A DNA stretch of 64,000 nt from Anaerolineales bacterium. GTDB lineage: Bacteria; Chloroflexota; Anaerolineae; Anaerolineales; Villigracilaceae. The stretch lies in contig JABFSL010000030.1 of assembly GCA_013140605.1 (NCBI GenBank), forward strand, positions 1 to 64,000. The letters are read 5' to 3'. Both the position numbers and the translations under genes were made by a program. Shown here one piece after another: positions 15,671-63,655 of the stretch. How positions within the stretch are numbered: position 1 is the first letter of the stretch; each line of letters starts with the position of its first letter. The notes under the pieces are model-generated. The model made no database searches, was not told the DNA's origin, and saw nothing but the letters and a program-made list of their open reading frames with translations.

Positions 15671-15687
15671 CGCGTCAATTCCTACAA

Positions 15688-22488: not shown

Positions 22489-22577
22489 GGTTTATTTCAC
22501 TCAAAAAGATATGCCAATGGCGGTATTATAAAAATAAGGATATAAAATAATTGCTTTGAAAAAATCCTAAATACGTT

Positions 22578-22649: not shown

Positions 22650-22806
22650 GTCTTGTTGGACCGTAAAGCTTCGCATCATTCTGTTTAGGACCCATGAACA
22701 GGAGATCTGCGAGTTCATTCAAAATTGAAAATGAGAGTCTTCACGGCCTGTTTAGCTTTTGAGGAGGGCTGGGCAAGCCCTCCCCATCAGAAAATTCATT
22801 TCAAAC

Positions 22807-24243: not shown

Positions 24244-24394
24244 ACGATCATTCTCCTAGAAAAAATGTATAACGAATCTTGAACAGGGTCCTTTGTGTCT
24301 CCATTCTTGTTTTGCGCGGCTCACCTCCATAAGTTGAGATCGGGATATTGAGATCCCATCTTGCACAGCGCCATGTGGTTTTGCTCCACTGGCG

Positions 24395-25609: not shown

Positions 25610-25621
25610 ATCTCAATTACC

Positions 25622-26575: not shown

Positions 26576-26656
26576 ATTTCTTTTCCTTGATCATTATTAG
26601 GTACCGTGTGCAGAGTTGTTTTTGCACGCGGACATTCCTGCCAATATCCATTACCT

Positions 26657-28168: not shown

Positions 28169-28169
28169 T

Positions 28170-29087: not shown

Positions 29088-29088
29088 C

Positions 29089-36764: not shown

Positions 36765-39700
36765 ATGTTGAATCGTCTTACCTCTCTGTTAAAAATCCGC
36801 GCGGATGAAAGCCGACTAGTTATTCTGGTAGGCCTGTTATTCGCATGCATTCAGGCGGGACAAGGCATGGGCGACAATGCGGCATCGGCGTTGTTTCTCC
36901 TGCGCTATGGCGTGGACTTTCTTCCATATATGTATTTATTTTTGGGGGCGTTGACATTCATCACTACGCTCGCCTATTCCGCCGCGCTTGGGCGATTGGA
37001 CAAAGGCAAATTCTTTTCAACGCTGATCGCTATTTTTATTGGCTTGCTTGTTCTCGAACGTGCCGCGATTCTTTTTCCATTTCCACTTCTGTACCCCATG
37101 TTATGGTTGACCGTCAACGGCATCAGCATGATCCTCGGCACCTTCGTTTGGAATCTCGCGGGGGAAGTCTGCGATGCGCGGCAGGCGAAACGTTTATTCC
37201 CTTTGTTTACCAGCGCGGGGATTCTTGGCAGCGTCATTGGCAATGCGGTTACTGGTGTGACCGCCCGCCTGTTTGGCACAGATAATCTGCTTCTTTTATA
37301 TGCGGTCCTGCTTGGCGTTGCTCTTTATCTTACGCGCGTCATAGCAGGTGCATACTTCCGCAAGGAAAAAGTTTTCAAAAATAAATCGAACCTTTGGGAT
37401 GACCTGCGCGCAGGCTTCGACTTTGTGCGAGTCTCGCCGTTGATGCGTTTGATCGCCTATTCTTCAATTTTATTTTCGGTGCTGTTCTTCTCAATCGCAT
37501 TTCCCTTCAATAAAGTTGTCACCGCCTCGTTCACAGATGAAGCGGGCGTGGCGGGTTTCTTTGGTCTCTTCAACAGCATCACCACCGCCTCCACATTTCT
37601 CGTTTCCCTTTTTCTCGCCAGCCGCATTTACACGCGACTCGGCATCATCAACGGCGTGTTCCTCATGCCGCTTACCTATATTTTTTCCTTTGCAGTTTTC
37701 GCAGGCTTTTATAATTTAAACGGCGCGGCGATTGCACGCTTTGCGCAATTGGTCATTCTTTCAGGTATCGCAGGCACAGCATGGAACGCGTTGTTCAATG
37801 TTGTGCCTGCGCGAAAACGCGGACAGGTGCTGGCATTCAACAATGGCGTTCCTTCGCAAATTGGTGTCGTACTTTCGGGCGTTTTGCTCATCGTTGCGGA
37901 GCGTGCATTTACCGTCCAGCAGATTTTTTTGATGGGCACAATTCTTGCATTCGTGTGCGGTGTCTTGATCTGGCGAATGCGTAAGGCATATGCTCAAGCC
38001 TTGGTTGATGCTTTGCAAGCGGGTCGCCTCGAAGTCTTCAGCGCAAACGAAGCCTCGTTCAGTGGATTCCAAGGCGATGCTGCCGTATTGGATGTCGCCA
38101 TACGAGCCTTACAGGATGCAAAGCCAACCACGCGTCGACTCGCGGCTGATATGCTGGGACGAATGGAATCGGACTCAGCCATCTCGCATCTCACCCGCCT
38201 CCTCTCCGACCCCGAGCCTGCTGTGCGTGCCTCGGCAGTTTCCTCGCTGGGAATTTTATGCGCTGACTCCGCCATTAACGAGATCATTCTTTCGCTTGAT
38301 GACTCAGATAACCAGGTACGCGAAGAAGCATTGACAGTTCTCCCGAAACTGAAAGCGATCCCTTCCCCTGAACTCATCACAAAAATCTCTGGCATGATGA
38401 AAAACGATTCGTCTCTGTCAGTTCAAACCAAGGCGATCATCGCATTGACCAAACTTGGGGATGTTGATGAATCAATTTCGAATCTGACTTTGCGTCTCAA
38501 TTCAAATGATCCCCGCCTCCGCCTTTCTGCTTTGGAGACTGTTACCGAAGTTCCGCCATCCTTGAATCATTCTTTCGACATCAAATCAATTTTGGATTCT
38601 CTCGAAAATTCATCAGCAACTATTCGTGCGGCCGCTGTATTTGCGCTTGGAAGTTTTAAAAATGACTCCGTTTGCAAAGTGCTGATCAAATATTTAACTG
38701 ACGTTGATGAAAGTGTTCGTAAAGCTGCCGCAGAAACACTGCGTCAACGAAGTGACGAAAGCCGCGAACTCGTGCTTGAACTCTTTGCTTCAAATAACTC
38801 CGCTGTAGATTCTGCCCTCGATGCGCTCGCTCCAGGGAATCCCGAATCGCTTGCTCCGCTTCGGGAATATGCCAAACGTGAGACTGTCCGCGCGCGGACA
38901 TTGCGGAACCAGTCTGCCAGCCTTCCCTCCACGCACCACGCAACACGCTTTTTGCACGACTGCCTCCGCAGGCAAGCCTCCCTCTGCGAAGGACGCTTGA
39001 TCAAAACGGTCGGCTTGTTTGGCGATACGCACACAATGGAACTTATCCGCAAAAGCATGAGCGGCACCAACATTGAAAACCGCGCCGCCGCGCTCGAAGC
39101 GCTGGATACCATCGGAGATAAACAGCTTGCGAAAAGTGTAGTCTCCCTTCTTGAAGAAGAGCCGCAGTTATCAGACCCATCCGATGTTATTGCTGTATTG
39201 TTGAAAAGCACAGATCCCTGGGTGCGGATTCTGGCGATCCACTCTACATCTGAACTCGGCTTGCGCGAATTTATTCCTCTGTTGCATCAATTGAAATCAG
39301 GCTCAGACTCGCTTATGCGCGAAGCCGCGCTCGGAGCATTGACCCAGTTTGGCGAGGAGAAACTTATGGACACCTTAAAAACCGTTTCCATCCTGGAGCG
39401 TATTCTGTTATTGCGGGAAATCCCCATCTTTGCCGATCTCTCCCCCGAAGATTTGAAACTCGTGGCAGAGACTGCACGCGAAGAGTGGTATCCACAAAAC
39501 GCAGTGATCTTTCATCAGGGCGAAGAAGGCAATATGATGTTCGTGATCGTCGAAGGCCAATTGCAAGTTCTGCGGTCAGCGGATGGGACCGAGCAAGTGT
39601 TGGCGCAGCGCGGCTCAGGTGATTTTGTCGGCGAGATGGCGATCATCGAATCTACGCAGCGCTCGGCGACACTTCGTACCCGAACGGAGGTCCGCGTGCT

Positions 39701-39806
39701 GGCAATTGATGGCGAAACCTTCAAAGGTATTCTGCGCGAACGCCCCGATGTCTCTTTCGCCGTATTGCGCAGCATCTCACGCAGACTGCGGGAAATGGGA
39801 GTGTAA
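36765..39806 (+). CDS. MFS/Npt-like membrane domain + HEAT repeats + cyclic-nucleotide-binding domain
   Basis: About 12 TM N-terminus, HEAT region (AVRASAVSSLGILCADSAINEII), C-terminal cNMP domain (GEEGNMMFVIVEGQLQVL...GDFVGEMAIIESTQRSATLRT). Confidence 0.85.
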   Translation: MLNRLTSLLKIRADESRLVILVGLLFACIQAGQGMGDNAASALFLLRYGVDFLPYMYLFLGALTFITTLAYSAALGRLDKGKFFSTLIAIFIGLLVLERAAILFPFPLLYPMLWLTVNGISMILGTFVWNLAGEVCDARQAKRLFPLFTSAGILGSVIGNAVTGVTARLFGTDNLLLLYAVLLGVALYLTRVIAGAYFRKEKVFKNKSNLWDDLRAGFDFVRVSPLMRLIAYSSILFSVLFFSIAFPFNKVVTASFTDEAGVAGFFGLFNSITTASTFLVSLFLASRIYTRLGIINGVFLMPLTYIFSFAVFAGFYNLNGAAIARFAQLVILSGIAGTAWNALFNVVPARKRGQVLAFNNGVPSQIGVVLSGVLLIVAERAFTVQQIFLMGTILAFVCGVLIWRMRKAYAQALVDALQAGRLEVFSANEASFSGFQGDAAVLDVAIRALQDAKPTTRRLAADMLGRMESDSAISHLTRLLSDPEPAVRASAVSSLGILCADSAINEIILSLDDSDNQVREEALTVLPKLKAIPSPELITKISGMMKNDSSLSVQTKAIIALTKLGDVDESISNLTLRLNSNDPRLRLSALETVTEVPPSLNHSFDIKSILDSLENSSATIRAAAVFALGSFKNDSVCKVLIKYLTDVDESVRKAAAETLRQRSDESRELVLELFASNNSAVDSALDALAPGNPESLAPLREYAKRETVRARTLRNQSASLPSTHHATRFLHDCLRRQASLCEGRLIKTVGLFGDTHTMELIRKSMSGTNIENRAAALEALDTIGDKQLAKSVVSLLEEEPQLSDPSDVIAVLLKSTDPWVRILAIHSTSELGLREFIPLLHQLKSGSDSLMREAALGALTQFGEEKLMDTLKTVSILERILLLREIPIFADLSPEDLKLVAETAREEWYPQNAVIFHQGEEGNMMFVIVEGQLQVLRSADGTEQVLAQRGSGDFVGEMAIIESTQRSATLRTRTEVRVLAIDGETFKGILRERPDVSFAVLRSISRRLREMGV

Positions 39807-41393: not shown

Positions 41394-44300
41394 ATGCTCC
41401 TCTTTACATCCCGCGTTCGCAGCCTGCTCAATATCCACGCCGAAGAAAGCCGCATGGCTTTGCTCGTCATCGGTGTGATGCTGCTGACCTCGGCTGGATT
41501 CACACTGGGAAGCACCAGCATCGGGACATTATTCCTCACGCGCTACGGCGTGGAATATCTGCCCTACATGTATCTGCCGTTGGGAATCATTTCCCTCGTC
41601 ACATCATTGGGGATCACCGCCCTGCTTGGACGGGTCCGCCGCGAGACACTTTACATCTTCATTCCCATCGGTATTGCAATTCTCACCATCTTCGCGTGGC
41701 TGGCACTTTTCAGCGCATGGAGAATCATCTATCCGATATTGTGGCTTGGCAAGGAAGTTATCAACTCACTCGTCAGTTTGGTGGTGTGGGGTATCGCAGG
41801 CACAGTCTGCGATACGCGCCAGTCGAAGCGGCTCTTTCCGCTGTTCAACGCGGGGCGCATTCTCGGCGCGGTCATCGGCGGATTTGGCACGGGCTTTTTG
41901 GTCAACCAAATTGGCACGCAAAATCTTCTGCTGGTTTGGGCTGGAATGCTGTTTCTCGCCTTCGCATTGACTCGCGCCTTATTAAAAAATCGTGTCATTG
42001 TTGAGCAGCCTAGCAAAGCGCATCGCAAACAAAAACAACTGACGCTGATTCAGGAAATGCAGCAAGGCTATCAATTCGTGCGCGGTTCCCCATTAATGAA
42101 ATGGATTTCCATTGCCGCGATTCTATTTTCCATTTTATACCGCTGTATTGACCTGCCTTTTGCGCAAGCCGCCACATCGCAATATCTGGGAGATGAAAAA
42201 GCATTGGCGGGTTTCCTCGGTCTCTTCGAAGGCATCTGCACCGCCGCCGCGTTTCTCGCATCCACATTCATTGCCAATCGCCTGTATGTGCGCTTCGGCA
42301 TCATGAACGCCATCCTCGCCCTGCCCATTATTTACCTGATCGGCTTTGGCGGTCTCGCCATCTCCAACGCCTTCGCTGTCATCATTACATTTCGTTTCAT
42401 ACAAATGCTGTGGCTTACGAGTATCGCCGACTCAGCCTATCAAGCTATGTTCAACGCGGTCCCGTCCGCGCGGCGTGATCAAGTCCGCGCTTTCATTGGC
42501 GGCGTCCCCGAACAGGCAGGGACATTCCTCGCGGGACTCGTCACCATTGTTTTTGCATCACATCAACTCGCCCTCGTTGGGCTTGCCTCCGCCGTCATCA
42601 CAACTTTCATCATTTGGTCTGCGAGCCGCGCTTATAACTTCGCCCTCGTTGATTCTCTCCGCAAGGGACGCCCCACACTTTTCAATGCAAACAATCATCC
42701 CGACGCAACCGCGCTCCATGCCGCGCTTGACGGCATGAAAAATCCCGACCCCATCGTCCGCCGCGTCTCGACGGAAATCATTGCATCACATTCTTCCGCA
42801 ACTGACACACTCGTTCATGCTCTTTTTGACGAAGACACCGACGTCCGCATTTCCGCATTAAAAGGACTTTCGCGCCTGCAAGCATCTTCCGCCCTGCTGG
42901 ATATTGCCGCGCTTCTTTCCGCGCCTCAGCCTGCCCTCCGCGCCCAGGCAGTGGATTCCCTGCGGGATTTGACTCCCTATCCGCGCGGATTGAGCGCCCT
43001 GCTCACAAAAATGCTTGATGACGAAGACTCGCGTGTGCAAGTGCGCGCCATCGTCGCCCTGCTTTCGGTGGACTCGACTCATCCATCCCGAAGCCGACTC
43101 CGTCAATTATCCATGCTCGCAAATGTGGACGAACGCATCATGGCCTTGAACGCGCTCGCAGAAGTTGGCGACCCTGACGCGCTCGTGCTTTTCTCCACTG
43201 AACTTAGTGATGAACATGCACCCATCGCGGTACGATGCGCCGCCACGTCTGCGTTAGCCTCCTGCGGAACTTCCGCCATCCCAGAATTGATAACCGCATT
43301 AGCCGCAGAACATACCTCGCTCAAAGCGGGCGCGGCTTCCGCGTTGGGAAAGATCGGAGATGCGAGTCTGCCTGCGGTGCTGGGTTCTTTGGCAGAATTT
43401 GATTCAGAAGAGGGAGCGCTCCTTGCGCTGGATCAATTGTCGGCGTGGAAAGAAGCGGGACAAATCCGCAAGCATGTCAAACTCCGCGTTGAGTCGTCGC
43501 TTCGGTTCGAAGATTTGCGGCTTGCCATTCATCAAAATAAAAATGAAAGAATCCAATTGCTGACTGATTCATTACAAAGCCGTGCCCGCCGCGATGGGAC
43601 TCTCGCATTGAAAGCATTGAGCCTGCTCAATGACCACGAAACGATTTCAGTGGCAATCGAGAATTTGAATCATCAAGTTTCGAACGCGCTCGAAACCCTC
43701 GAGTCGATTCGCGAAGCCGCGCTGATTCGTCCGCTGTTTCGTGTTTGGGAATCTGGCGAAGCGGTCTCAAAGATGAGCGCTGATGAAGCGTTCGCGGAAT
43801 TGACAAACGAAAAAGATGACTGGCTGCGCGCCTGCGCGAATTTTGCAAAGGAAGAACCCATGGAAACTTTAACCACCCTTTCAACAATGGAACGCGTGCT
43901 GTTGCTGCGGCGCGTGCCCCTGCTTGCCGACCTTTCCCCCGCAGACCTGCAGCGTGTGGCCGCGATTGCCACCGAGCACGATTTTGTGAATGATGAAATC
44001 ATTTGCGAACAAGGCGAGACGGGAGATGAAATGTATGTGATCGTCTCCGGCCAAGTGCGGATCGTGGTGAACAATGAGAGCCAGCCTGAAAAGGAAATTG
44101 CCCGCCGCGTAACAGGCGATGTGGTCGGCGAGATGTCGCTCATCAGCGGCGATACGCGCATCGCTTCTGTGATCGCTTTCGGCGATGTGCGCGTGCTGTG
44201 CATCGACCGATTGAGTTTCGAAAGCCTGCTGCGCGAACGCCCGGAGGTGAGTCTGGCTGTGATGCGCGAGCTTTGCAAACGATTAAAAGAAAGAGGGTAG
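41394..44300 (+). CDS. MFS/Npt-like + HEAT + cyclic-nucleotide-binding protein, paralog of 36765-39806
   Basis: Same architecture; shared LLxIxAxESR start, RYGVxxLPYMY motif and GDVVGEMSLISGDTRIASVIA cNMP motif. Confidence 0.85.
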   Translation: MLLFTSRVRSLLNIHAEESRMALLVIGVMLLTSAGFTLGSTSIGTLFLTRYGVEYLPYMYLPLGIISLVTSLGITALLGRVRRETLYIFIPIGIAILTIFAWLALFSAWRIIYPILWLGKEVINSLVSLVVWGIAGTVCDTRQSKRLFPLFNAGRILGAVIGGFGTGFLVNQIGTQNLLLVWAGMLFLAFALTRALLKNRVIVEQPSKAHRKQKQLTLIQEMQQGYQFVRGSPLMKWISIAAILFSILYRCIDLPFAQAATSQYLGDEKALAGFLGLFEGICTAAAFLASTFIANRLYVRFGIMNAILALPIIYLIGFGGLAISNAFAVIITFRFIQMLWLTSIADSAYQAMFNAVPSARRDQVRAFIGGVPEQAGTFLAGLVTIVFASHQLALVGLASAVITTFIIWSASRAYNFALVDSLRKGRPTLFNANNHPDATALHAALDGMKNPDPIVRRVSTEIIASHSSATDTLVHALFDEDTDVRISALKGLSRLQASSALLDIAALLSAPQPALRAQAVDSLRDLTPYPRGLSALLTKMLDDEDSRVQVRAIVALLSVDSTHPSRSRLRQLSMLANVDERIMALNALAEVGDPDALVLFSTELSDEHAPIAVRCAATSALASCGTSAIPELITALAAEHTSLKAGAASALGKIGDASLPAVLGSLAEFDSEEGALLALDQLSAWKEAGQIRKHVKLRVESSLRFEDLRLAIHQNKNERIQLLTDSLQSRARRDGTLALKALSLLNDHETISVAIENLNHQVSNALETLESIREAALIRPLFRVWESGEAVSKMSADEAFAELTNEKDDWLRACANFAKEEPMETLTTLSTMERVLLLRRVPLLADLSPADLQRVAAIATEHDFVNDEIICEQGETGDEMYVIVSGQVRIVVNNESQPEKEIARRVTGDVVGEMSLISGDTRIASVIAFGDVRVLCIDRLSFESLLRERPEVSLAVMRELCKRLKERG

Positions 44301-50890: not shown

Positions 50891-51460
50891 ATGGTTAATT
50901 CCACAGTGCAAGAATCAGATCAGGGTTTGATCCACGCCTGCCGCAATGGCGATGCCGCTGCGTGGGAACAGGTGTTGAATAAATATGAACGTCTGGTATT
51001 TTCAATCCCTTTGCGCTATGGACTCGACCGTGATGCCGCCGCCGATATCGCCCAGATCACATTCACCATCTTGATGCAAAGTCTGGATGAGTTGAGGGAA
51101 GACAGTCACCTGGGGGGGTGGCTTGCAACAGTGGCCCGGCGTCATACCTGGCGTTATCTTAAACGATCCAACCGCGAAGCTCCCCTTGAAAATAATGACC
51201 TGCCCGAAATCGAACCGTTATTTGGCGATTCCGGCGGCAACCCAATCGATCAATTTGAGCTGACAGAATGGGTGGATCAGGGGTTATCCAAAATCGATGA
51301 ACGCTGCCGCGACCTCCTTCGCGCGCTTTATTTCGACACCCAACAAACTTCCTATGCGGAATTGGCAGAACGTTTACACCTGCCGCTCGGAAGTATTGGT
51401 CCCACCCGCGCCCGTTGTCTTGAACGGCTTAAACAGATTTTGCAGGAAAACCAAAGCTGA
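50891..51460 (+). CDS. ECF-type RNA polymerase sigma-70 factor
   Basis: LIHACRNGDAAAWEQVLNKYERLVFSIPLRYGL; C-terminal sigma-4 SYAELAERLHLPLGSIGPTRARCLERLK. Confidence 0.93.
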   Translation: MVNSTVQESDQGLIHACRNGDAAAWEQVLNKYERLVFSIPLRYGLDRDAAADIAQITFTILMQSLDELREDSHLGGWLATVARRHTWRYLKRSNREAPLENNDLPEIEPLFGDSGGNPIDQFELTEWVDQGLSKIDERCRDLLRALYFDTQQTSYAELAERLHLPLGSIGPTRARCLERLKQILQENQS

Positions 51461-51545
51461 AAAATATCATTTTTATTTGTATGTATTTTCTGGCCGGAGA
51501 AAAGGCATTTATAAGTAGATAACCACATACTCTGCTGGAGACAAT

Positions 51546-52172
51546 ATGGAAAAAAACCCCCTTAATTTCGAACGCCTGGCTGATTGGATGGATGGCCGTC
51601 TTTCTGAAGAAGAATCCGCCGCGATAACAAAACAACTGGAATCTGCTGATGAGGCCACCCGCAAGAACGCCGAATGGCTGAGCGTTTTCGCCAAAGCGAG
51701 AAAGGCCGCTGTTCAAACATCCCCGCCTGCCGAATTACACACAGAATTAATGCGCCGCTTTAAGGCGTACTCCCGCGACCATCAGCAACCGGGCTTTTTT
51801 AAGCGTTTGGCTGCCACATTGACCTTTGACAGCGGCATGCAATTAGCCACCTCTGGCTTGCGTTCAGCCGGGTCGTCATCCTCACAACGCCAGATCGTTT
51901 ATTCATCCGATGTGGCAGACATAATCCTAAACTTCCAACCCCGCCTCCACGATAAAAATGTTGACATCGTGGGTCAATTCCTTCCCACTGATGTTTCCCT
52001 CACTGGACCGTTCAGTATTCAACTGCTTCAAGGCAATACTGAGTTGAAATTGATCACGGTTGATGATATTGGTGAATTTAGCATTGAGTCTGTCCCGCCG
52101 GGTGTGTATACAATGATTCTGAATGCTGAACAAGTCGAGGTTTTGATTTTTACAGAGGAGATACACTTATAG
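51546..52172 (+). CDS. anti-sigma-like protein without recognisable zinc motif
   Basis: N-terminal FERLADWMDGRLSEEESAAI resembles anti-sigma N-termini; position directly after the sigma factor; C-terminal beta-rich region. Confidence 0.5.
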   Translation: MEKNPLNFERLADWMDGRLSEEESAAITKQLESADEATRKNAEWLSVFAKARKAAVQTSPPAELHTELMRRFKAYSRDHQQPGFFKRLAATLTFDSGMQLATSGLRSAGSSSSQRQIVYSSDVADIILNFQPRLHDKNVDIVGQFLPTDVSLTGPFSIQLLQGNTELKLITVDDIGEFSIESVPPGVYTMILNAEQVEVLIFTEEIHL

Positions 52173-52174
52173 TA

Positions 52175-55060
52175 ATGGCAGATATTGATGATTCAGAAAT
52201 AAGCCAGGAACTCCTTGATACCTTGTTAAATTTGCCGACCCATGACGAGAAGTCGGTTTTTTTGCATTCTAAAAACCTTCTTAATGAAGAAGGTTTGCTG
52301 CTATTATTGGATGAGGCATCCTATTTGGTGGGGAATGACCCCGGCATGGCAAGACGGCTGGCCATCCTTTGCGAGGATTTTTCCGGGAGCGTGTCTGCTC
52401 CAATCATTGTCCCACGCTCCATTTATATCCGCGCCCAGACTCATGCGATCAATGCCGAATATGAGACAGCCCTCTCCCTGATTGCCTCAGCCCGCGAAGG
52501 ATATGAGGCTTTAGGATGTGATCTTGATGCTTTACGCACCAATCTGGGACTCATTCATGTGCTTCAAGAATTAGGCCGCTATCAGGAAGCTTTGGATGCC
52601 GGCAGGGTGATCCTGGATGCTCTTGAAGATGCCATACAGCCAGAGATCGCTCAAGTCTCGCCCGAACGCAGTCAGATCGCTGCCACTGCCTACCAGAATA
52701 CAGGCAGATGCTACGAGCAAATGGGACGCTATGATGAAGCGCTCAGCGCCTACGCTTCTGCTGAGTCGCTCTTCCTTGCGCTGGATATGACCGATCGCAT
52801 CGGTGACATTAGTAATAATCGAGGCATTGTCCTCTTGGGACTGGGCCGCGGGCGGGATGCGCTAACAGCTTTTGAAAAGGCGGAATCCATTTTTGCCGAG
52901 GCTGGCGAGACGTTATATCAGGCCCAGGCTCAGATAAATATCGGCGATGCGAGTCTTATGCTTGGGAGCTACACGCATGGACTCGATTCTTTCGAGCACG
53001 CCCGCCGCCTGCTCACCCCCCTTGAGGCACTGGCCGATAAACACGTTCTCCTCCTTGATATGGCGGATGCATATTTAACCCTTAATTTAAATGCTGAAGC
53101 CTTGGATGCCTATCGGGAAGCCGATGATCTATTACGGACAGCCGGAATGACCCATGACCGGGCACGGGCATTGTGGGGAATGGGGTCAGCGCTTATCGCT
53201 CAATTGTATTTTGAAGAAGCAGGGCAAATTTTGGCTGAGGCCGAAGCGTTGTTTTCCCTCGCCAATAACATACCCCTGCTCTCGAATGTTATTCTGGAGC
53301 GGGCGTTTTTGCTCGCGGCCCGCGGTGACCGTGATACTGCCCTGTCTTTGGCTGGTAAAGCGCTTGCCCTGGTATCAAACGATGATTGGCCCATCCAGCA
53401 GGCGTATGCCCACCTGCGCATTGCCGATCTTTCGCTGCCCAATACAAAGGAAGCAGAAACACACCTGCTTAGCGCCCAGAATTTATCGGATCGACTGGCT
53501 CTGCCAAATTTACGCTCCCGACTTAACCAACGGCTTGGTCATCTGAATTTGCTGATGGGCAAACCTGAAAAAGCGCAAAAGATTCTACAGGATGCCGTTG
53601 ATGAAATAGAACAGTTGCGGGATGTGCTCAAACATGAAATGGCGCGAACCTCATTTCTTCGAGACAAGACTGCCGTTTATGAAGATCTGGTCCAATTGCA
53701 CCTTGAGCGCGAAGATAAAGAGGGGATGGAACGAGCGTATGCGGTGGTCGAGCGGGCCAAATCCCGCACACTGGTGGACCTCATTACTGGCATCGTAAAT
53801 GCCCGGGCGGCGATCCCTGCTGATCTGGAACTGGCGACCAGATTACAGTCGAGTCAGACCGAGTTGAATTCCATCTACAACGAATTATTGAGCAGCGATC
53901 AGAAAACCAATATCCAGGAAATTTATTCCCGCGCTGTCAAACTGGAGCGGGAAATCAATCGCCTGCGCCTGCAAGCCACGGAGACAGCCTCAACAGCATC
54001 CGATCAATTTGGCATTCCATTATCGCCTGACTCATTGAACGATCAACTTTCTCCCGATGCCATTTTACTGACTTACTATATCTGCGGCGATGAGGTGCTG
54101 GCTTTTGTCCAGGCTCATGGCAAATTGCAGGTTGCCCGCCGTATTTGCAGCGCCAGTTCAGTGCAGGGACATTTGCAAAAACTTGCCATGCAGTGGGATC
54201 GCTTCCGGGCGGGCGGCGATTTTGTTGCCAAACACATGCAGCAGCTTGAACAGTCAACGCGGCGCATATTGGCGGCGCTTTATGACGAGCTTGTCAAACC
54301 AATCGAGACATTGTGGAGCGGCGATCTTGATACGAACAAGGCTGCGAGACTTGTCATTGTGCCGCATGGCGCGCTCCACCAGGTTCCGTTCCATGCCCTG
54401 TTCGATGGCACTCACTATCTGATCGACCGATTTGAAATTTCATACGCGCCAAGCCAGACTGTTTGGGCGCTGTGTCAAAACCGGGCCGCGTCGGCCTCAA
54501 ACAGAGCGCTGCTGATCGGCGTGGCAGATGACTTGATCCCTGCGGCGGAAACCGAAGTATGGGCGATTGCTAGGCAAATTGATAACTCCATTGTTCATAC
54601 TGACAAGTCACAGGCCACATTGGCGACATTCCAAACTGAGGCGCCTGGCTGCAGCATTCTCCATCTGGCTTGTCATGGATTGTTCCGCGCAGATAACCCC
54701 ATGTTTTCATCGCTTAAATTACATGACGGCTGGTTAAGAGCGGCCGATATAATGCAGCTTGATCTTAGCGGGGCTTTGGTCACATTGAGCGCCTGTGAAT
54801 CAGGCCGCAGTCAGGTTATTCCCGGAGATGAGATCATCGGGTTGACACGGGCCTTTTTGGGAGCGGGCGCATCCACGTTGGTGGTCAGCCTTTGGCTGGT
54901 GCAGGATGAAACAACGGTCTCCTTGATGGAGAACTGGTACACGCAACTGAAAGATGGGACGGGGCGGGCCGGAGCTTTGCGCGCTGCGCAGCTTGCGGTA
55001 AAAGCGGCCCATCCCCACCCATATTACTGGGCGCCTTTTGTTTTAGTTGGCCAGGGCTGA
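52175..55060 (+). CDS. TPR-CHAT protein (caspase-like protease)
   Basis: TPR N-terminus; CHAT HLACHGLFRADNPMFSSL and LVTLSACESG His/Cys motifs. Confidence 0.93.
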   Translation: MADIDDSEISQELLDTLLNLPTHDEKSVFLHSKNLLNEEGLLLLLDEASYLVGNDPGMARRLAILCEDFSGSVSAPIIVPRSIYIRAQTHAINAEYETALSLIASAREGYEALGCDLDALRTNLGLIHVLQELGRYQEALDAGRVILDALEDAIQPEIAQVSPERSQIAATAYQNTGRCYEQMGRYDEALSAYASAESLFLALDMTDRIGDISNNRGIVLLGLGRGRDALTAFEKAESIFAEAGETLYQAQAQINIGDASLMLGSYTHGLDSFEHARRLLTPLEALADKHVLLLDMADAYLTLNLNAEALDAYREADDLLRTAGMTHDRARALWGMGSALIAQLYFEEAGQILAEAEALFSLANNIPLLSNVILERAFLLAARGDRDTALSLAGKALALVSNDDWPIQQAYAHLRIADLSLPNTKEAETHLLSAQNLSDRLALPNLRSRLNQRLGHLNLLMGKPEKAQKILQDAVDEIEQLRDVLKHEMARTSFLRDKTAVYEDLVQLHLEREDKEGMERAYAVVERAKSRTLVDLITGIVNARAAIPADLELATRLQSSQTELNSIYNELLSSDQKTNIQEIYSRAVKLEREINRLRLQATETASTASDQFGIPLSPDSLNDQLSPDAILLTYYICGDEVLAFVQAHGKLQVARRICSASSVQGHLQKLAMQWDRFRAGGDFVAKHMQQLEQSTRRILAALYDELVKPIETLWSGDLDTNKAARLVIVPHGALHQVPFHALFDGTHYLIDRFEISYAPSQTVWALCQNRAASASNRALLIGVADDLIPAAETEVWAIARQIDNSIVHTDKSQATLATFQTEAPGCSILHLACHGLFRADNPMFSSLKLHDGWLRAADIMQLDLSGALVTLSACESGRSQVIPGDEIIGLTRAFLGAGASTLVVSLWLVQDETTVSLMENWYTQLKDGTGRAGALRAAQLAVKAAHPHPYYWAPFVLVGQG

Positions 55061-55207
55061 CCAACAATTGTATTTTTCAGCGTTCCAACAGGCATTTACT
55101 GGATATAGTCACTATTAAAGATCCATGGAAAGGCCGTAACTTTTTGCCTCCTAATACGACAAATAAGAGAGTATACGACCAGTCTATCCTGCCTAAAGGT
55201 TACCGTT

Positions 55208-56521
55208 ATGCACACTAAATTCATTTTGCGTCACTCCATAAATGTTGCGTTGCGATTAACGGTCTTCGCAACCTTTTTATTAAGTTTTGTCTGGGTCTCT
55301 CCGACCCGTCATGTGCTTGCGGATGGGGGAAGTTTCAAGCCTGGTGAAGTAATTGTCAAACTGGACCCGCTGACTGGCGCCGAAATCGAAGATATTAATG
55401 CGACTTATGGTACAACAACGCTAAAATCACTTGACATGCTTCCTGATATTTATCTTCTGGAATTACCCTCTGGCCGCGATGCCCACATTGCATCAGAAGA
55501 CATGGGACTTGACACGAGATTGGAATTTGCCGAACCTAATTTTATTAGCCAGGCTCCCGAGGCCAATCCGCGCGGAACATCCCGCTGGAGTGGGCTGGAT
55601 CCCGCGCCCTACGTCAGCCAGTACGCTGACAGTTTGATCCATTTAAACCAGGTATCAGCTATCAGCCGTGGAGCAGGGTCCGTAGTTGCGGTTTTGGACA
55701 CTGGCGTTCAACTCGATCATCCCGCCTTATCATCCAATTTTACGCTCATACAATATGACTTCATTGATGGTGACGCTGTGCCGGAAGATATCTTTAGCTT
55801 TGTGGATAGCAATGGCAATGGCCTCGTTGATGAGGCCACTGGTCATGGTACGCATGTAGCTGGTGTTATTCATCTGGTGGCGCCTGAAGCGCAGATCATG
55901 CCGCTGCGCGTGCTCGATTCAAATGGCGATGGTGATATTTTCACACTCGCCGAAGCGATGGTATTTGCCATCAAGAATGGGGCAAACGTAATTAACCTAA
56001 GCCTGGGAACCCAGGATAAATCCGATATACTGAAAAATGTGGTTCGTGAAGCGACACATAATGGTGTTGTAGTGGTAGCGGCGGCAGGAAATTTAAACAG
56101 CAAGGAAGCCCAGTACCCCGCAGCCGACAATTGCGCCTTATCGGTAACGTCTGTCGGTCCGTTGGGAGTCAAATCTGATTTTGCGAATTTTGACGCGAAG
56201 GTTGATTTTGCCGCGCCCGGCGAATCGATCTATAGCGCCTTTCCAAAGGATGGTTACGCCTCCTGGAGCGGAACATCCATGGCAACACCTTTTGTGGCTG
56301 GGCAGGCCGCTCTGATCCACAGCCTATCCCCTGCTTTGAATCCTCAGGAGATTGCCAATATTATGGGTGAAACTTCGCACTCCCTGGATCCACTTAATCT
56401 GTTATATAAAGGAAAACTTGGCAAAGGGTTAATTGATATTGATGGTAGTCTTGAGCTTGCTCTCAACGCAACTTTCCCCATAGTCAATCACGGATTAATT
56501 GGAGCAAGCTGCATTAAATAA
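55208..56521 (+). CDS. secreted subtilisin-like S8 protease
   Basis: Signal peptide, fervidolysin-like propeptide FKPGEVIVKL, DTGVQLDHP / HGTHVAG / GTSMATPFVAG triad. Confidence 0.93.
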   Translation: MHTKFILRHSINVALRLTVFATFLLSFVWVSPTRHVLADGGSFKPGEVIVKLDPLTGAEIEDINATYGTTTLKSLDMLPDIYLLELPSGRDAHIASEDMGLDTRLEFAEPNFISQAPEANPRGTSRWSGLDPAPYVSQYADSLIHLNQVSAISRGAGSVVAVLDTGVQLDHPALSSNFTLIQYDFIDGDAVPEDIFSFVDSNGNGLVDEATGHGTHVAGVIHLVAPEAQIMPLRVLDSNGDGDIFTLAEAMVFAIKNGANVINLSLGTQDKSDILKNVVREATHNGVVVVAAAGNLNSKEAQYPAADNCALSVTSVGPLGVKSDFANFDAKVDFAAPGESIYSAFPKDGYASWSGTSMATPFVAGQAALIHSLSPALNPQEIANIMGETSHSLDPLNLLYKGKLGKGLIDIDGSLELALNATFPIVNHGLIGASCIK

Positions 56522-56586
56522 TTCACCCTGTCATGTCGTTGGTTTTTCGTAGGGCGAGTTAAATGATCTTTCCATTTGTTTGCAAA

Positions 56587-56617
56587 GGAGACACGCAAAA
56601 TGCGCGTCTCCTTTTTT
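56587..56617 (+). terminator. rho-independent terminator after subtilase
   Basis: GGAGACACGC-aaaat-GCGCGTCTCC followed by TTTTTT (one stem mismatch). Confidence 0.8.
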
Positions 56618-56775: not shown

Positions 56776-57597
56776 ATGATTGACACATTATCCATTGGCA
56801 TGTTAGTTGAAGATCGGTACAAAGCCCAATCTCAACCTGCTGGCATGATTAGCGCCTTGCAAGCCTGCGGACACCGGGTGACCTTGCTCGATCCTCAATC
56901 ATCCTCATACGAAGCGGGAAATAATTCCTGGCTCAGCAAGTTTGACCTGATCATCGCCAGAGGCCGCAGCCTTGGATTGCTTTATCTACTCGCCTGGGCT
57001 GAAGCGCAAGGGGTACCGACCATCAACCGGCGCGCCGCCATTGCATCAGTCCACAACAAGGCCGAAATGGCGGTTGCGCTTGCTGGCAGAAATTTCCCCA
57101 CACCGCGCACATTCCTTGGCCCGGTTAACACGCTTACCTGTCAGGTTCCTGATTCATGCTACCCGGTGATCTTCAAGCCGATCTTCGGTGATAACAGCAA
57201 TGGATTGCGCGTTGTCCAAAACTCTGCTGAAATTGAAGGTTTGCATTGGCCTGAGGCAACAGCGCTTGTTCAACAATATTTACCAAGTGATGGCTGCGAT
57301 CTGAAGTTATATGGAATAGGTGATCGGATATGGGTTGTCCGCAAGCCGGCTTCATTTTCCCCGGACTTAATTTCCAATTCAAAACTTCAAATCGAATGTC
57401 TCCCCACCACTCAGGCATTGGGCGAGCTGGGATATGAATGCGGAAAACTTTTTGGTTTGGATTTCTATGGAGTGGATTGCATCCACACACCGGATGGCCT
57501 GGTTGTCATCGAAGTGAATGACTTTCCAAATTACACTGGTTTGACTGGCATCGGCAGGGAATTAGCCAACTACGCTGTTCATCGAGCCATACATTAA
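56776..57597 (+). CDS. RimK-like ATP-grasp ligase (paralog 1)
   Basis: YPVIFKPIFGDNSNGLRVVQ and GLDFYGVDCIHTPDGLVVIEVNDFPNYTG ATP-grasp motifs; ATG at 56776. Confidence 0.85.
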   Translation: MIDTLSIGMLVEDRYKAQSQPAGMISALQACGHRVTLLDPQSSSYEAGNNSWLSKFDLIIARGRSLGLLYLLAWAEAQGVPTINRRAAIASVHNKAEMAVALAGRNFPTPRTFLGPVNTLTCQVPDSCYPVIFKPIFGDNSNGLRVVQNSAEIEGLHWPEATALVQQYLPSDGCDLKLYGIGDRIWVVRKPASFSPDLISNSKLQIECLPTTQALGELGYECGKLFGLDFYGVDCIHTPDGLVVIEVNDFPNYTGLTGIGRELANYAVHRAIH

Positions 57598-57627
57598 TAC
57601 GGAACTATAAATCGAGGAGTAAATAAA

Positions 57628-58473
57628 ATGAAAATAGCCTTCATAATAACCCACCATCCGCCGACCCGGCCAAGCCCCATCATACCGGAAGCGATCCGTC
57701 TGCTGTCTGAATGGGGTGTGAATGTTGATGTGATCTGTCCCGAAGAACAAATGACAGACTTGTCGAAAGTGCGGGTGGAACACGATTTGTATGTTCTTAA
57801 ATCTGGAACGGAACTTGCCTTAAGCATGGCGGGCATTCTGCATGTTGGCGGGGCAACCATCCTTAATCCCTACCCCGTTGCAGAAATGCTGCGCGACAAG
57901 ATCATGACCAGTCACATTCTGCAGGCGGCAGGTGTACCCACACCGGACGCATTTGTAACCGCAGATCCCAAACAACTTATACCGCTTCTTGATGATGGTC
58001 CGATCGTGGTCAAGCCTTATCGCGGTTCACAGGGGCGGGGCGTTCGCGTTATCCGCACTGCCAACGAATTGAACGAGACAACATCTGAAGATGGTTTTCT
58101 CTTCGCGCAGCGCTATTACGAACCCCAAGGTCTGGACAAAAAGATCTATGTGATCGGCGATCAGGTCTACGGTGTCAAGCGAGTCTGGCCGCCACGCACC
58201 TATGAAGAAAAATTGGGCGAACCATTCACCATCAGCCCAGATCTCCATGAGATCGCGATCAAATGCGGCCGGGCATTCGGTATTGGTTTATATGGATTCG
58301 ATGTAATCGAAAATAACGGCCGTTCATATGTAGTGGATATGTCCAGCTTCCCGGGCTTCAAAGGCGTGCCCAACGCCGCCTTACGCCTGGCCGATTACAT
58401 TTATTCCGCCGGCGAGCGCGTCTTAAGCGGCACCCCGCTTTTCCCAACGCTAAGAAAGGATGCTTTGGTATGA
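57628..58473 (+). CDS. RimK-like ATP-grasp ligase (paralog 2)
   Basis: PIVVKPYRGSQGRGVRVIR; GLYGFDVIENNGRSYVVDMSSFPGFKGVPNA. Confidence 0.87.
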   Translation: MKIAFIITHHPPTRPSPIIPEAIRLLSEWGVNVDVICPEEQMTDLSKVRVEHDLYVLKSGTELALSMAGILHVGGATILNPYPVAEMLRDKIMTSHILQAAGVPTPDAFVTADPKQLIPLLDDGPIVVKPYRGSQGRGVRVIRTANELNETTSEDGFLFAQRYYEPQGLDKKIYVIGDQVYGVKRVWPPRTYEEKLGEPFTISPDLHEIAIKCGRAFGIGLYGFDVIENNGRSYVVDMSSFPGFKGVPNAALRLADYIYSAGERVLSGTPLFPTLRKDALV

Positions 58474-59666
58474 AAACCTTAATCATTGGCACAGGAAAGA
58501 TCGGTTGCGGATTTGCAGGTCAGTTAATGCGCGCGTCTGGGCATGAAGTTGTCTTCGCCAGTCGAAACCCAGCCATGGTGGATTATTTCAACCGCATTGG
58601 CAGTTATCGCGTGCGCCTGGCTGCGGGGCAAAACGCCGAGGAGCACCTTATCGATCAAACACGGGCAGTCTCCACCTCCAACAAAAAAGAAATGGCCGAT
58701 GAATTGACAAGCGCCGATCTGATCATCACCGCTGTCGGAGCGGGACAGTTGGCCAAAATCGCCCCCATGCTGGCTGATGGATTACGCGGTCGCACCACGC
58801 CGGTAAATGTTCTGGCCTTCGAGAATATGACCAACGCTGGAAGTTATCTCCGACAATTGATCGCCGATAACCTGCCGCGCGATCATTCGCTCGCAGAACA
58901 TGGTTTTTCCAGCGTGCTTGTCAGCCGCGCGGTATCACAACAATTGGGAGATCCAACCAGCGACGATCTGATCACCTTCATTGGCGATCCCATAGATACA
59001 TGGGTTGTGGATAATGCGGCCCTTTGTCAGTCGCTGCCCGCGACACAGGGAATGATCGTTACAGAAAATTTCGAGGCCTGGATTCAACGCAAATTGTACA
59101 CATACAGCGCCGGCCACGCGATCACTGCGTATCTGGGTTATCTAAAAGGGTATCACTACATCCACACCGCCATTCGCGATCATGAAATCAGAAACGCGGT
59201 ACTCTCCGCCATGAAGGAAGGTCAACGCGGTTTGGATGCGCGCTATGGTCATGAAATTGCAGGCAGTACCCGTGACTTGCTGGATATCATTTCCCGCTTT
59301 GATAATGCGTCACTCAATGACCCAATTACACGGGTGGGACGCGATCCAAAACGCAAGCTGGGATGTGATGACCGTCTTGTAGGTGCCGCGCGTCTGGCTG
59401 AAAAGGCTGGAGTTAATCCAGAGATGCTGGCTTTTGGAGTTGCCGCCGCCCTCTTCTTTGATAACCCAGACGACCCTTCAGCCGCCGATCTGCAACACGC
59501 GATCAGAATTATTGGGGCAGGCTCCGCGCTTCGTCAGGTGAGCGGTTTGGATCCAAGCCGCGGGGTGGGAAGATTGATCGCAGATTTTTGGAAACAACTG
59601 TCGGCTGGCTGGCGAAGCGGTAATCAGCTTTTGAGTCTCAACTCGATGGTATGGGCCTGGAGTTAA
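58470..59666 (+). CDS. mannitol-1-phosphate dehydrogenase-like NAD(P)-dependent dehydrogenase
   Basis: MKTLIIGTGKIGCGFAGQLM Rossmann motif; VNVLAFENMTNAGSYL; TENFEAWIQRKLYTYSAGHAITAYLG. Confidence 0.75.
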   Translation: MKTLIIGTGKIGCGFAGQLMRASGHEVVFASRNPAMVDYFNRIGSYRVRLAAGQNAEEHLIDQTRAVSTSNKKEMADELTSADLIITAVGAGQLAKIAPMLADGLRGRTTPVNVLAFENMTNAGSYLRQLIADNLPRDHSLAEHGFSSVLVSRAVSQQLGDPTSDDLITFIGDPIDTWVVDNAALCQSLPATQGMIVTENFEAWIQRKLYTYSAGHAITAYLGYLKGYHYIHTAIRDHEIRNAVLSAMKEGQRGLDARYGHEIAGSTRDLLDIISRFDNASLNDPITRVGRDPKRKLGCDDRLVGAARLAEKAGVNPEMLAFGVAAALFFDNPDDPSAADLQHAIRIIGAGSALRQVSGLDPSRGVGRLIADFWKQLSAGWRSGNQLLSLNSMVWAWS

Positions 59667-59705
59667 ATATCCGCACCGTTCATAAATTTGGAAAGGATGA
59701 TTGCC

Positions 59706-59942
59706 ATGATTATTCAAAATAATTTTGCCGTCAAAGATGAAACTGACAGCCTGGAAAATTTGATCGAAGAAATTTCTGTAAGCCTGGGCGGGGTACTATC
59801 CCACGAGCGGATCGCACAAGTTGTGACTGAAATTGCCTCTGATTACCAGAATGCCACAGTGACTTCATTTGTACCAATATTCATTCAGCGATATGCCCAT
59901 GAAAGATTAGGTAAAGAAATACAACACAACAAAGCGAGGTAA
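59706..59942 (+). CDS. small helical protein, possibly DUF3562 (three-helix bundle)-like
   Basis: LENLIEEISVSLGG...VTSFVPIFIQRYAHERLG; ORF track start 59688, ATG at 59706 also in frame. Confidence 0.55.
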   Translation: MIIQNNFAVKDETDSLENLIEEISVSLGGVLSHERIAQVVTEIASDYQNATVTSFVPIFIQRYAHERLGKEIQHNKAR

Positions 59943-59945
59943 ACC

Positions 59946-60827
59946 ATGAGACTTTATTTCCTTCTTACACAGCGCGTTCCTGCGGTGCCAAGCCCGGTTC
60001 TGCTTGAAGTTTTTGATATTCTGAAACGTATCGGTTTTCATGTTGAATCTGGCATTGCGGAAGAAATCCTTTTGCAGCCAGATCATTTGGCAGTGGCGCA
60101 CGATCTTTACCTGCTTAAATCGCACACCGAATTATCCCTTAGCCTAGCGGGTGTTCTCCATGGACAAGGGGCACGAATGTTAAACCCCTATTTGTCCTGC
60201 ATCACTACTCAGGACAAAATCATAACCTCCCAAAGACTGCGCGCCGCTGATGTTTCGGTTCCGCAATCATGGGTAACCGGCGAGCTGGATCTGCTGCGCC
60301 CCATTATTGAGAGACAACCTTTAATTATTAAACCCTACCGCGGACATAGAGGCGCCGGAATACATATTGTCCGCACTGTTTCTGAATTGGAAGCGATTCC
60401 CGAACCTGAAACGCCCGTGATCATACAGGAATATATACCCGGCACTGGCGAGGATCTGAAGGTGTATGTCGTTGGCGAAAATGTTTTCGCTGTTCGCAAA
60501 ACGTTTTCATCCTCCAGCTTCACAGAGTTTGGCCGTCCCTGTCCGGTAAGCCCTGAAGTGCGCGAAATGGCTCAACGGGTTGGAAGGGCGCTCGGTCTGG
60601 GGCTTTATGGATTGGATGTGATCGAAAGCCCCAAAGGGCCGGTGGTTGTTGATGTGAACTATTTCCCCGGTTATAAAGGCGTGCCTGATATTGCCCCGGT
60701 AATTGCAAAATATATTGAAGAATATGCCAATGGAAATGTTGGGCTTAATTGGCCCTCCCCTGCCAGCGCTATAAACGCGGATAACCTGTCTTCATTTGTA
60801 ATGTTTAACATGGACCCACCACAATAA
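59946..60827 (+). CDS. RimK-like ATP-grasp ligase (paralog 3)
   Basis: PLIIKPYRGHRGAGIHIVR; GLYGLDVIESPKGPVVVDVNYFPGYKGVPD; closely resembles paralog 2. Confidence 0.87.
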   Translation: MRLYFLLTQRVPAVPSPVLLEVFDILKRIGFHVESGIAEEILLQPDHLAVAHDLYLLKSHTELSLSLAGVLHGQGARMLNPYLSCITTQDKIITSQRLRAADVSVPQSWVTGELDLLRPIIERQPLIIKPYRGHRGAGIHIVRTVSELEAIPEPETPVIIQEYIPGTGEDLKVYVVGENVFAVRKTFSSSSFTEFGRPCPVSPEVREMAQRVGRALGLGLYGLDVIESPKGPVVVDVNYFPGYKGVPDIAPVIAKYIEEYANGNVGLNWPSPASAINADNLSSFVMFNMDPPQ

Positions 60828-60870
60828 TAATTTCTGATATGTCGTATTATTTATAAACAGGAGACCTCCA

Positions 60871-62178
60871 TTGATCCACATCAAACCCAAACTTAATGCA
60901 TCACTTATAGCCATCATCGCTGAAGGCTTTTCATCCCGATTAAGTTTTGGTTTGATAAGTTTTATTCTGCCTTTATACGCGCACCACCTTGGATTGAGCT
61001 TGACCGAAATCGGTTTGCTTGCATCGCTGAATACCATCATTGCCATTGCGTTGAAACCCCTCACAGGCTGGCTGTCTGATCGCTTTGGACTCAAGCGCAT
61101 TTTTATTATATCGGTCTGCCTGCGCAGTTTGGTCGCGCTTTTGAATGCATATGCCGTGGTGCCATGGCAGTTGTATTCCGTCCGAATGGCTCACGGGCTT
61201 GCGACCTCGCTCCGCGACCCCTCCAGCAATGCCTTGATCGCTGACAATGGCGGAGAAAAAGCAGTGGCTTCCGCATTCGCCTGGTATCAAACCGCAAAGA
61301 GTGTGGCGGGTTCATTGGGAAAAGCGCTTGCGGGCGTTTTACTGGCTTTGACAGCCGCAAATTATTCCTTTGTTTTTTTTGTTGCTTTTTTATTATCCGT
61401 GCTGCCGCTGGTGGTTGTGGCCCTTTTTGTAAAAGAGACGCATCCGGAAAAGCAATCTATTTCAACCCCTAAAGTTTCTACTCAACCTGTGCAAAAACAA
61501 GCTGTAAAGGGAATCCGCAATTCGTGGCAGTCAATCGCTCCTTATATTGGTTTCGGCTTTTTGATCAGTTGCACTGCTGAAATGATGACAGGCCTGTTCC
61601 CAATTTTGGCCATAGAATATGCGGGGTTGAGCGAAGTTCAGGTGGGTATTATTTTCTCAATTTCAACCTTCGCTGTCCTGATCCTGGGTCCATTATTCGG
61701 CTGGCTGTCTGATAATGTAAGCCGAAAATTGGTGCTCATGATCCGAGGGCTTGCGAATATGCTTTCCTCGCTCATCTTCATTTTCTTCCCCGGCTTTTTG
61801 GGAATTGCCATTGGCAAACTTGCTGATGATGCCGGAAAATCCGCTTTTCGCCCGGCGTGGGGATCCTTAATGGCACACGTATCAAGTTTTGATAAACAAC
61901 GACGGGCGCAGACAATGAGCTGGATGAGCATGGGAGAGGATGCGGGTGATATTGTGGGTCCCATCCTTTCAGGCTTCCTATGGAGCACATGGGGTATTAC
62001 TTTTGCCCTGGGAACGCGCGTTGCGCTTGCAATTGTTACTGAGATATATTCATTAACTCTGGCTAACTCCATGGAAAAAAGAATATCTTATAATGGAGAC
62101 ACAAAAGAATTCAAAGATACTGCCTACCTTCCCAAGGTACATATCTTGAATGACGATATCCGACAGGCGGAAAAATAA
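60871..62178 (+). CDS. MFS transporter
   Basis: 12-TM pattern; PLTGWLSDRFGLKRIF and PLFGWLSDNVSRKLVL MFS motifs; TTG start. Confidence 0.88.
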   Translation: MIHIKPKLNASLIAIIAEGFSSRLSFGLISFILPLYAHHLGLSLTEIGLLASLNTIIAIALKPLTGWLSDRFGLKRIFIISVCLRSLVALLNAYAVVPWQLYSVRMAHGLATSLRDPSSNALIADNGGEKAVASAFAWYQTAKSVAGSLGKALAGVLLALTAANYSFVFFVAFLLSVLPLVVVALFVKETHPEKQSISTPKVSTQPVQKQAVKGIRNSWQSIAPYIGFGFLISCTAEMMTGLFPILAIEYAGLSEVQVGIIFSISTFAVLILGPLFGWLSDNVSRKLVLMIRGLANMLSSLIFIFFPGFLGIAIGKLADDAGKSAFRPAWGSLMAHVSSFDKQRRAQTMSWMSMGEDAGDIVGPILSGFLWSTWGITFALGTRVALAIVTEIYSLTLANSMEKRISYNGDTKEFKDTAYLPKVHILNDDIRQAEK

Positions 62179-62647: not shown

Positions 62648-63655
62648 ATGCCGAAAAAGAAGAAACCTACAATTTATGATGTTGCCAAATTATCCGGCGT
62701 CAGCATTTCAACGATTTCGCGCGTGTTGAATGCGCCTGACAAAGTAAACTCAAAAACACACAAGCGGGTAATGGATGCCATTGATCGACTTGGATTTATT
62801 CCAAGGGCAGAGGCTCGCGCCCGCGCGCTGCAAAACACTGCCCGTATCGGTGTATTGACGCCATTCTTCACGGCTCCATCCTTTGTGCAAAGACTTAGAG
62901 GGGTCGCATCTGCTTTATCAAAGGCGAATTATGAATTGGTGATCTACCCGGTTGATTCGATCGATCATCTGCAAGGATATATTTCCTCCATTCCGTTGAT
63001 GCAAAATATTGATGGGTTGATCATCATGTCCCTATCGCTTGAGGATCATGATGCGCAGCGGTTATCCAACAATGGAATGGAAACTGTCTTGATCGAGTAT
63101 TCGCACCCGGAGTTGAACAGCATTCTGATCAATGATCTGCATGGCGGCCGGCTGGTTGCCGAGCATCTAGTCAGCAAGGGACATAAAATTTTTGCATTCC
63201 TGGGTGACATTGAACCACCTGAAAAATTTGCGATCCACCCGGTCAAATCACGCCTGGCGGGATTTAAACAGGTACTGCAGGAGGCAGGTTTTTCTTTGCC
63301 TAAAGCATATATTCGTTCATGCCCGTATACTCAGAAAGAATCAAGACAGGCGGCGCTCGAATTACTAAACCTGCCAAAGCCGCCCACTGCCATATTTGCA
63401 GCATCAGATATTCAGGCGTTGAGTGTAATGAAAGTGGCGCGCCAATTAAACATCAAGATACCGGATGATCTGGCTATTGTTGGCTTCGATGATATTGATG
63501 TCGCAGAACACGTGGACCTGACAACCATCCGCCAGCACCTGGATGAATCAGGCAGACTGGCAGCAGAGATATTACTTGCACGGATCAGCGAACATGGCCG
63601 GCCATTGCAGCATATCAACCTTCCGCTCAATTTGATCGAGCGTTTAACAGCCTGA
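62648..63655 (+). CDS. LacI-family transcriptional regulator
   Basis: TIYDVAKLSGVSISTISRVLNAPDKVNSKTHKRVMDAI HTH; periplasmic-binding-like sensor domain. Confidence 0.95.
   Translation: MPKKKKPTIYDVAKLSGVSISTISRVLNAPDKVNSKTHKRVMDAIDRLGFIPRAEARARALQNTARIGVLTPFFTAPSFVQRLRGVASALSKANYELVIYPVDSIDHLQGYISSIPLMQNIDGLIIMSLSLEDHDAQRLSNNGMETVLIEYSHPELNSILINDLHGGRLVAEHLVSKGHKIFAFLGDIEPPEKFAIHPVKSRLAGFKQVLQEAGFSLPKAYIRSCPYTQKESRQAALELLNLPKPPTAIFAASDIQALSVMKVARQLNIKIPDDLAIVGFDDIDVAEHVDLTTIRQHLDESGRLAAEILLARISEHGRPLQHINLPLNLIERLTA

Follow-up and report, generated by a model that had tools for sequence, protein, structure and literature searches.

Operon with three ATP-grasp enzymes

Positions 56,776 to 62,178 of contig JABFSL010000030.1, from an Anaerolineales bacterium of the phylum Chloroflexota, carry an operon of six genes that encodes three ATP-grasp enzymes, a reductase resembling mannitol-1-phosphate dehydrogenase (M1PDH), a small helical protein, and a transporter of the major facilitator superfamily (MFS). 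We analyzed this operon within the first 64,000 nucleotides of the contig, read on the forward strand and referred to here as the window. Our working model, offered tentatively and with somewhat less than even confidence, is that a horizontally transferred, self-contained operon makes and exports a small sugar-alcohol-type metabolite that carries phosphate. The set of genes, their order, their co-inheritance, and the families of their products are shown by the analysis. Six tightly spaced plus-strand genes ending in a terminator had been described in an initial annotation of the window, and all six open reading frames were confirmed. The operon and its boundaries are as follows:

56584-56614, + strand: intrinsic terminator at the end of the upstream subtilase gene; hairpin of -18.8 kcal/mol (z -6.6), then TTTTTT
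56776-57597, + strand: ATP-grasp 1 (P0001), 273 aa
57628-58473, + strand: ATP-grasp 2 (P0002), 281 aa
58470-59666, + strand: M1PDH-like reductase (P0003), 398 aa
59706-59942, + strand: small helical protein (P0004), 78 aa from ATG
59946-60827, + strand: ATP-grasp 3 (P0005), 293 aa
60871-62178, + strand: MFS transporter (P0006), 435 aa
62277-62306, + strand: intrinsic terminator at the end of the operon; hairpin of -16.8 kcal/mol (z -3.5)

Spacing along the six genes is 30, -4, 39, 3, and 43 nt. The terminator at 56584-56614 divides the operon from the upstream subtilase (peptidase) gene, and we consider the six genes one unit because of the two flanking terminators and their co-occurrence across phyla. 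The gene for P0004 most likely starts at the ATG at 59706, which has a good ribosome site; an alternative TTG at 59688 would yield a protein of 84 aa. No RNA element or riboswitch within the operon matched Rfam up to E 0.1, and a sigma-70 promoter scan returned the same counts as in shuffled sequence.

Active-site residues of the ATP-grasp enzymes

Three positions, numbered 58, 172, and 236 in P0005, were used as diagnostic of ligase or kinase. In 48 more distant relatives, mostly of the LysX/RimK type, these positions are occupied by Arg (47/48), Arg (45/48), and Glu (45/48), respectively; three of the outlying rows are accounted for, namely L006 (a gene-1 remnant in the genome of the window), L051 (a member of the new family described below), and L050 (a poor alignment). 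The new family has Lys at position 172 in 77 of 79 rows. Genes 2 and 3 also have Lys at position 58 (44/46) and Asp at position 236 (46/46). Gene 1 carries Arg at position 58 in 13/13 proteins and Glu at position 236 in 12/13. The resulting patterns are K-K-D for genes 2 and 3, R-K-E for gene 1, which is intermediate, and R-R-E for the distant relatives.

Lys at 172 and Asp at 236 are found in human and potato ITPK1. The potato enzyme also has Lys at 58, a position at which HKLTD of human ITPK1 was aligned by hand. PPIP5K carries KVYTVG...RKSP...DVNGF. (The query sequences of human ITPK1 and PPIP5K2 were checked against PDB chains.) In the window, ATP-grasp 3 has the ITPK-type residues Lys-58, Lys-172, Asp-236, and Asn-238 together with DVNYFPGYKGVP, and ATP-grasp 2 has ITPK-type Lys-58, Lys-172, and Asp-237. 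Only 8 of 23 gene-2 proteins keep Asn as the third metal ligand. Arg-62 and Glu-246 of ATP-grasp 1 are ligase-like; its Lys-177 and FPNY are those of the new family. From the Lys-Lys-Asp residues we infer that the products of genes 2 and 3 may be kinases.

The likeness to ITPK and PPIP5K comprises the Lys of the K-[VL]-[YF]-x-x-G strand, the RK/RPS-type motif, the D...DxNxF metal motif, and, in genes 2 and 3 only, a Lys of the N-terminal domain. However, the trio is only ~20% identical to these kinases, does not match the ITPK N-terminal domain, and is encoded alongside a dehydrogenase and an exporter in a bacterial operon.

Relationship to known ATP-grasp families

Paralogs 2 and 3 are 41% identical and share the motifs EHDLYVLKSGTELALSMAGILH / AHDLYLLKSHTELSLSLAGVLH and KPYRGxxGxG, as the initial annotation had noticed, and paralog 1 is more divergent at 23-28%. 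In a maximum-likelihood tree (quick search, rooted by midpoint), genes 1, 2, and 3 group with Ktedonobacteria-like pairs, an ABC-linked branch, and a Nocardia protein. This group stands apart from ITPK and, with a support of 93, from RimK, LysX, and an MptN-like protein; gene 1, whose alignment included 12 further orthologues, and gene 3 form one clade each (support 99). The three ATP-grasps likely constitute one new family that lies outside RimK, LysX, and MptN-like enzymes.

Profile scores relate the trio to both ligases and kinases. The Pfam ITPK model (Ins134_P3_kin, PF05770) scores 63.3 bits with gene 3, 34.0 bits with gene 2, and 29.2 bits with gene 1, all of which pass the 23-bit gathering cut-off. 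The corresponding Pfam RimK scores are 52 bits for ATP-grasp 3, below its ITPK score, and 32 bits for ATP-grasp 1. At E < 1e-6, the ITPK model matches 22/23 gene-3, 11/23 gene-2, and 10/13 gene-1 proteins, and it did not match any of three controls (RimK, LysX, and the MptN-like protein) at E < 0.01. The RimK-family model TIGR00768 gives 85.7, 77.9, and 91.7 bits with the three ATP-grasps, all under the curated cut-off of 143.4 bits. The initial annotation of the trio as RimK-like ligases holds only in part: all three have the RimK fold, but none reaches the RimK-family cut-off, and in two of them ITPK-type residues stand where ligases have their own; for those two, the name may be wrong.

AlphaFold models of ATP-grasps 1 and 3 (predicted local distance difference test scores of 90.8 and 90.3, respectively) were compared with known structures using Foldseek. 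ATP-grasp 1 matches ArgX/LysX best, with a template-modelling (TM) score of up to 0.82. ATP-grasp 3 matches LysX/ArgX with TM up to 0.74 and ITPK with ~0.68. The ranking for both is ArgX/LysX, then RimK, with ITPK close behind. Since LysX/ArgX and ITPK both match well, Foldseek was set aside as a judge of ligase versus kinase. Overall, the trio resembles LysX/ArgX and RimK in fold (TM 0.65-0.83) and ATP-binding residues but is separate in the tree, lies under the RimK subfamily cut-off, and has R-R-E replaced in genes 2 and 3.

These comparisons bear on an alternative, in line with the initial annotation, that we regard as a real, though doubtful, possibility: the three enzymes would be carboxylate-amine ligases of the RimK/LysX type, each adding one amino acid to a core that the M1PDH-like enzyme has reduced, and the product would be an exported amino-acid or peptide conjugate. 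Such an architecture would resemble that of bacilysin-type dipeptide antibiotics. ArgX, LysX, and RimK are indeed the closest folds, yet the R-R-E found at 45-47 of 48 distant relatives is K-K-D in genes 2 and 3. RimK-family profile scores of 78-92 bits point the same way as the folds, but all three remain below 143.4 bits. Linked ATP-grasp ligases that act successively are a known theme (PMC4431377), and a sugar-linked branch of the family adjoins UDP-glucose dehydrogenase, a supplier of carboxylates; the operon itself, however, contains no amino-acid-supplying enzyme, carrier protein, or precursor peptide.

In a mixed pathway, which we consider unlikely, gene 1 would encode a genuine amino-acid-adding ligase and genes 2 and 3 would encode kinases; gene 2 might then be a partner of gene 3 with weak activity or a regulatory role. 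This pathway would account for the residues of gene 1 at two of the three diagnostic sites, where it is unlike genes 2 and 3, for its greater LysX likeness by Foldseek, and for the scarcity of the metal-site Asn among gene-2 proteins. It fits poorly with Lys-177, RKP, and FPNY of gene 1, which are typical of the family, and with the grouping of gene 1 with the family in the tree.

The reductase, the small protein, and the transporter

The alignment of P0003 with MtlD (3H2Z, E 1.6e-58) covers the entire protein. Both P0003 and the operon relatives have retained the M1PDH catalytic residues Lys and His as well as RVGRDPxRKLxxxDRL, a region that is expected to bind the substrate phosphate in MtlD-type enzymes. 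The earlier label "mannitol-dehydrogenase-like" can be made more precise: the enzyme is M1PDH-like, which points to a phosphorylated substrate. P0003 differs from MtlD in several respects. Its score of 275.7 bits is below the MtlD equivalog cut-off of 356 bits, and it is not encoded in a mannitol-uptake operon. The Asp that binds the NAD ribose is replaced in operon members, most of which have Arg next to it (FADVN becomes FASRN in P0003); because of these changes, P0003 is predicted to use NADP(H). The catalytic Asn of M1PDH is Ser in P0003 and often Ser, Gly, or Cys in operon relatives. P0003 is the only such gene detected in the genome of the window.

P0004 matches a three-helix bundle dimerisation domain, NF046112, with 40.2 bits (cut-off 25; E 3.2e-10). 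At one related locus (L082), a domain homologous to P0004 (E 2.5e-13 with a profile built from four stand-alone P0004-type proteins) lies within the dehydrogenase reading frame, between the two domains of the enzyme and with no intervening stop. This insertion is known from one metagenome contig, in which an assembly fault is unlikely. The presence of the homologous domain inside the L082 dehydrogenase suggests that P0004 is a subunit of the P0003 reductase.

P0004 had initially been proposed as a carrier or scaffold, an idea that the dimerisation domain and its occurrence inside a relative's dehydrogenase speak against. A specific version of this idea, in which P0004 is a LysW-type amino-group carrier that holds the product while a LysX-like ligase assembles it, appears very improbable. 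ArgX in complex with LysW was the top Foldseek match, and P0004 is small and located between operon genes; its C-terminus (GKEIQHNKAR), however, is without the LysW-type C-terminal Glu motif, and P0004 is missing from most orthologous operons. For the lack of this Glu, the NF046112 match, and the L082 domain, the carrier role was disfavored.

P0006 belongs to the MFS family (Pfam MFS_1, E 3.9e-52) and is predicted to be an exporter. Its orthologue lies directly after ATP-grasp 3 in most loci, and an ABC exporter replaces it in others.

Conservation and probable horizontal movement of the operon

A profile scan of genome contigs with an alignment of gene-3 proteins yielded 42 loci, onto which the six window proteins were mapped. 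The recurring order is ATP-grasp 1, ATP-grasp 2, M1PDH-like reductase, an optional 78-aa helical protein, ATP-grasp 3, and MFS transporter. This order is complete in L083, L084, L086, L087, L091, L093, and L099, and it recurs with fragments, an insertion, truncated contigs, or a change of order in L082, L085, L089, L097, L103, L108, and L117. L092, L094, and L095 have the order ATP-grasp 2, ATP-grasp 3, MFS; L096, L098, L102, and L107 have an ABC exporter instead of the MFS protein. The number of ATP-grasp genes reaches four in L089, L090, L093, and L099. By record titles, the operon occurs in Chloroflexota, Acidobacteriota, Actinomycetota, Pseudomonadota, Myxococcota, and Eisenbacteria; most of these records are metagenome bins, whose taxonomic labels can be wrong. 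The operon is sparse but widespread, mostly seen in uncultured bacteria of soil, groundwater, and reactors. No flanking gene is common to the loci except among close Anaerolineae relatives, and flanking genes were rejected as members of the pathway for this reason.

Distance matrices of the gene pairs 3/2, 3/1, 2/1, 3/M1PDH, and 2/M1PDH are correlated (r = 0.70-0.90, permutation p 0.0002-0.0012). These correlations show co-inheritance, not physical interaction, and the sequences partly share species history. Cross-phylum synteny and the shared history of the genes rule out a chance cluster and reject the possibility that the genes occur independently with no conserved neighborhood.

In 36 other genomes of the same genus, P0005 has no counterpart, only general relatives that are ~30% identical. 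Counterparts of P0002 above 45% identity number only three besides the window in 400 genomes sampled from the phylum. The operon probably moves horizontally, because its genes share a history and yet it is absent from the 36 same-genus genomes. Plasmid-borne copies were set aside, since the sole plasmid match, from Nocardia, is a relative of 29% identity in another gene setting. That relative, a single ATP-grasp gene (L124:7995-8861, NZ_CP109567.1), lies near PP2C phosphatase, serine/threonine kinase, integrase, and DISARM genes.

Within the genome of the window, the P0005 family comprises its two operon neighbors and otherwise only LysX-like relatives and a decayed gene-1 copy. The last (G000:C115:6812-7000; L006:1471-2073, - strand) encodes a truncated protein of 200 aa that is related to ATP-grasp 1 but has altered motifs (VNPIFGG in place of FKPIFGD), and is probably a decaying second copy.

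Proposed pathway

The analysis suggests a model in which P0003, probably assembled with P0004, would convert a ketose or aldose phosphate into a polyol phosphate with NADPH as the reductant. One after another, the ATP-grasp enzymes would then modify this polyol phosphate or an anionic acceptor related to it. The products of genes 2 and 3 are probably phosphate-transferring enzymes, like ITPK and PPIP5K, and that of gene 1 would be a third phosphate-transferring enzyme or an amino-acid ligase. The MFS protein would export the product. Phosphate transfer is slightly favored over amide ligation. It is tempting to speculate that the ATP-grasp kinases successively phosphorylate a sugar-alcohol phosphate to give an exported polyol polyphosphate serving as a phytate-like chelator, signal, or antimicrobial; we judge this specific outcome improbable.

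Several observations weigh against the proposed phosphorylated metabolite. The best-matching ITPK stretch is C-terminal only, mainly the final 60 residues, and the ITPK N-terminal-domain model is not among the Pfam matches up to E 0.1. By whole-protein fold and PDB profile score, RimK/LysX/ArgX are closer than ITPK, and gene 1 holds two of the three ligase-type residues. The M1PDH gene is missing from L092, L094, and L095 and is not indispensable. Because its catalytic Asn is Ser, P0003 may act on a substrate other than fructose 6-phosphate. Finally, an MFS protein would not usually be expected to export a highly phosphorylated product.

The chemistry of the trio would show how ATP-grasp enzymes change between amide ligation and phosphate transfer, because the family lies apart from both peptide-type ligases and inositol-phosphate kinases. 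If genes 2 and 3 encode true kinases, inositol-phosphate-kinase-type chemistry is present in bacteria; ITPKs have been placed in eukaryotes and Lokiarchaeota (review PMC8024741).

Comparison with described operons

Operons for bacilysin-type dipeptide antibiotics bring together an ATP-grasp ligase, reductases, and an MFS exporter. The operon described here is similar in combining ATP-grasp enzymes, a reductase, and an MFS exporter but differs in the ATP-grasp family, in its three copies, and in the M1PDH-like enzyme. Surveys of ATP-grasp systems describe other ATP-grasp operons (PMC4431377, PMC2922099). A search of the open literature, with subscription journals outside its scope, found no counterpart of the combined ATP-grasp and M1PDH-type gene set; provisionally, the operon and its product are new to the literature. 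Together with the order conserved across phyla, this agrees with the initial view of an uncharacterised, self-contained synthesis-and-export cluster.

Related loci and other features of the window

Other members of the ATP-grasp family occur in different settings. In L105, L110, L111, L113, L115, L116, and L118-L123, a lone member from a branch of the gene-2 family follows an ABC exporter; some of these members are fused to an APH-type kinase domain. At several of these loci, UDP-glucose dehydrogenase, an epimerase, and a family-2 glycosyltransferase are nearby, which defines a second, sugar-linked system of the family. In large-genome Chloroflexota (L071-L079), pairs of the family are accompanied by an APH-type kinase and by an ABC exporter that has an FHA domain; Mur-ligase-like, family-4 glycosyltransferase, and queuosine-salvage genes lie nearby. 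In an Acidobacteriota locus, a GHMP-type small-molecule kinase (L107:4739-5839) precedes the ABC exporter and ATP-grasp pair.

Directly upstream of the operon (50891-56518) is a row of sigma-factor-like, anti-sigma-like, TPR-CHAT-type, and subtilase genes, separated from it by the terminator. A LacI-family regulator (RbsR-like, 62648-63655) lies directly past the operon terminator. Elsewhere in the window, a run of CxxCH-rich, multihaem-type proteins spans 13085-30333; it includes a 2266-aa protein (15688-22488) that, by eye, seems to join a subtilase-like domain, repeats, and many haem motifs. Two long membrane proteins (36765-39806 and 41394-44300) lie beside a cyclase-like protein; by eye, their N-terminus is MFS-like, repeats follow, and the C-terminal domain is of the cyclic-nucleotide type.

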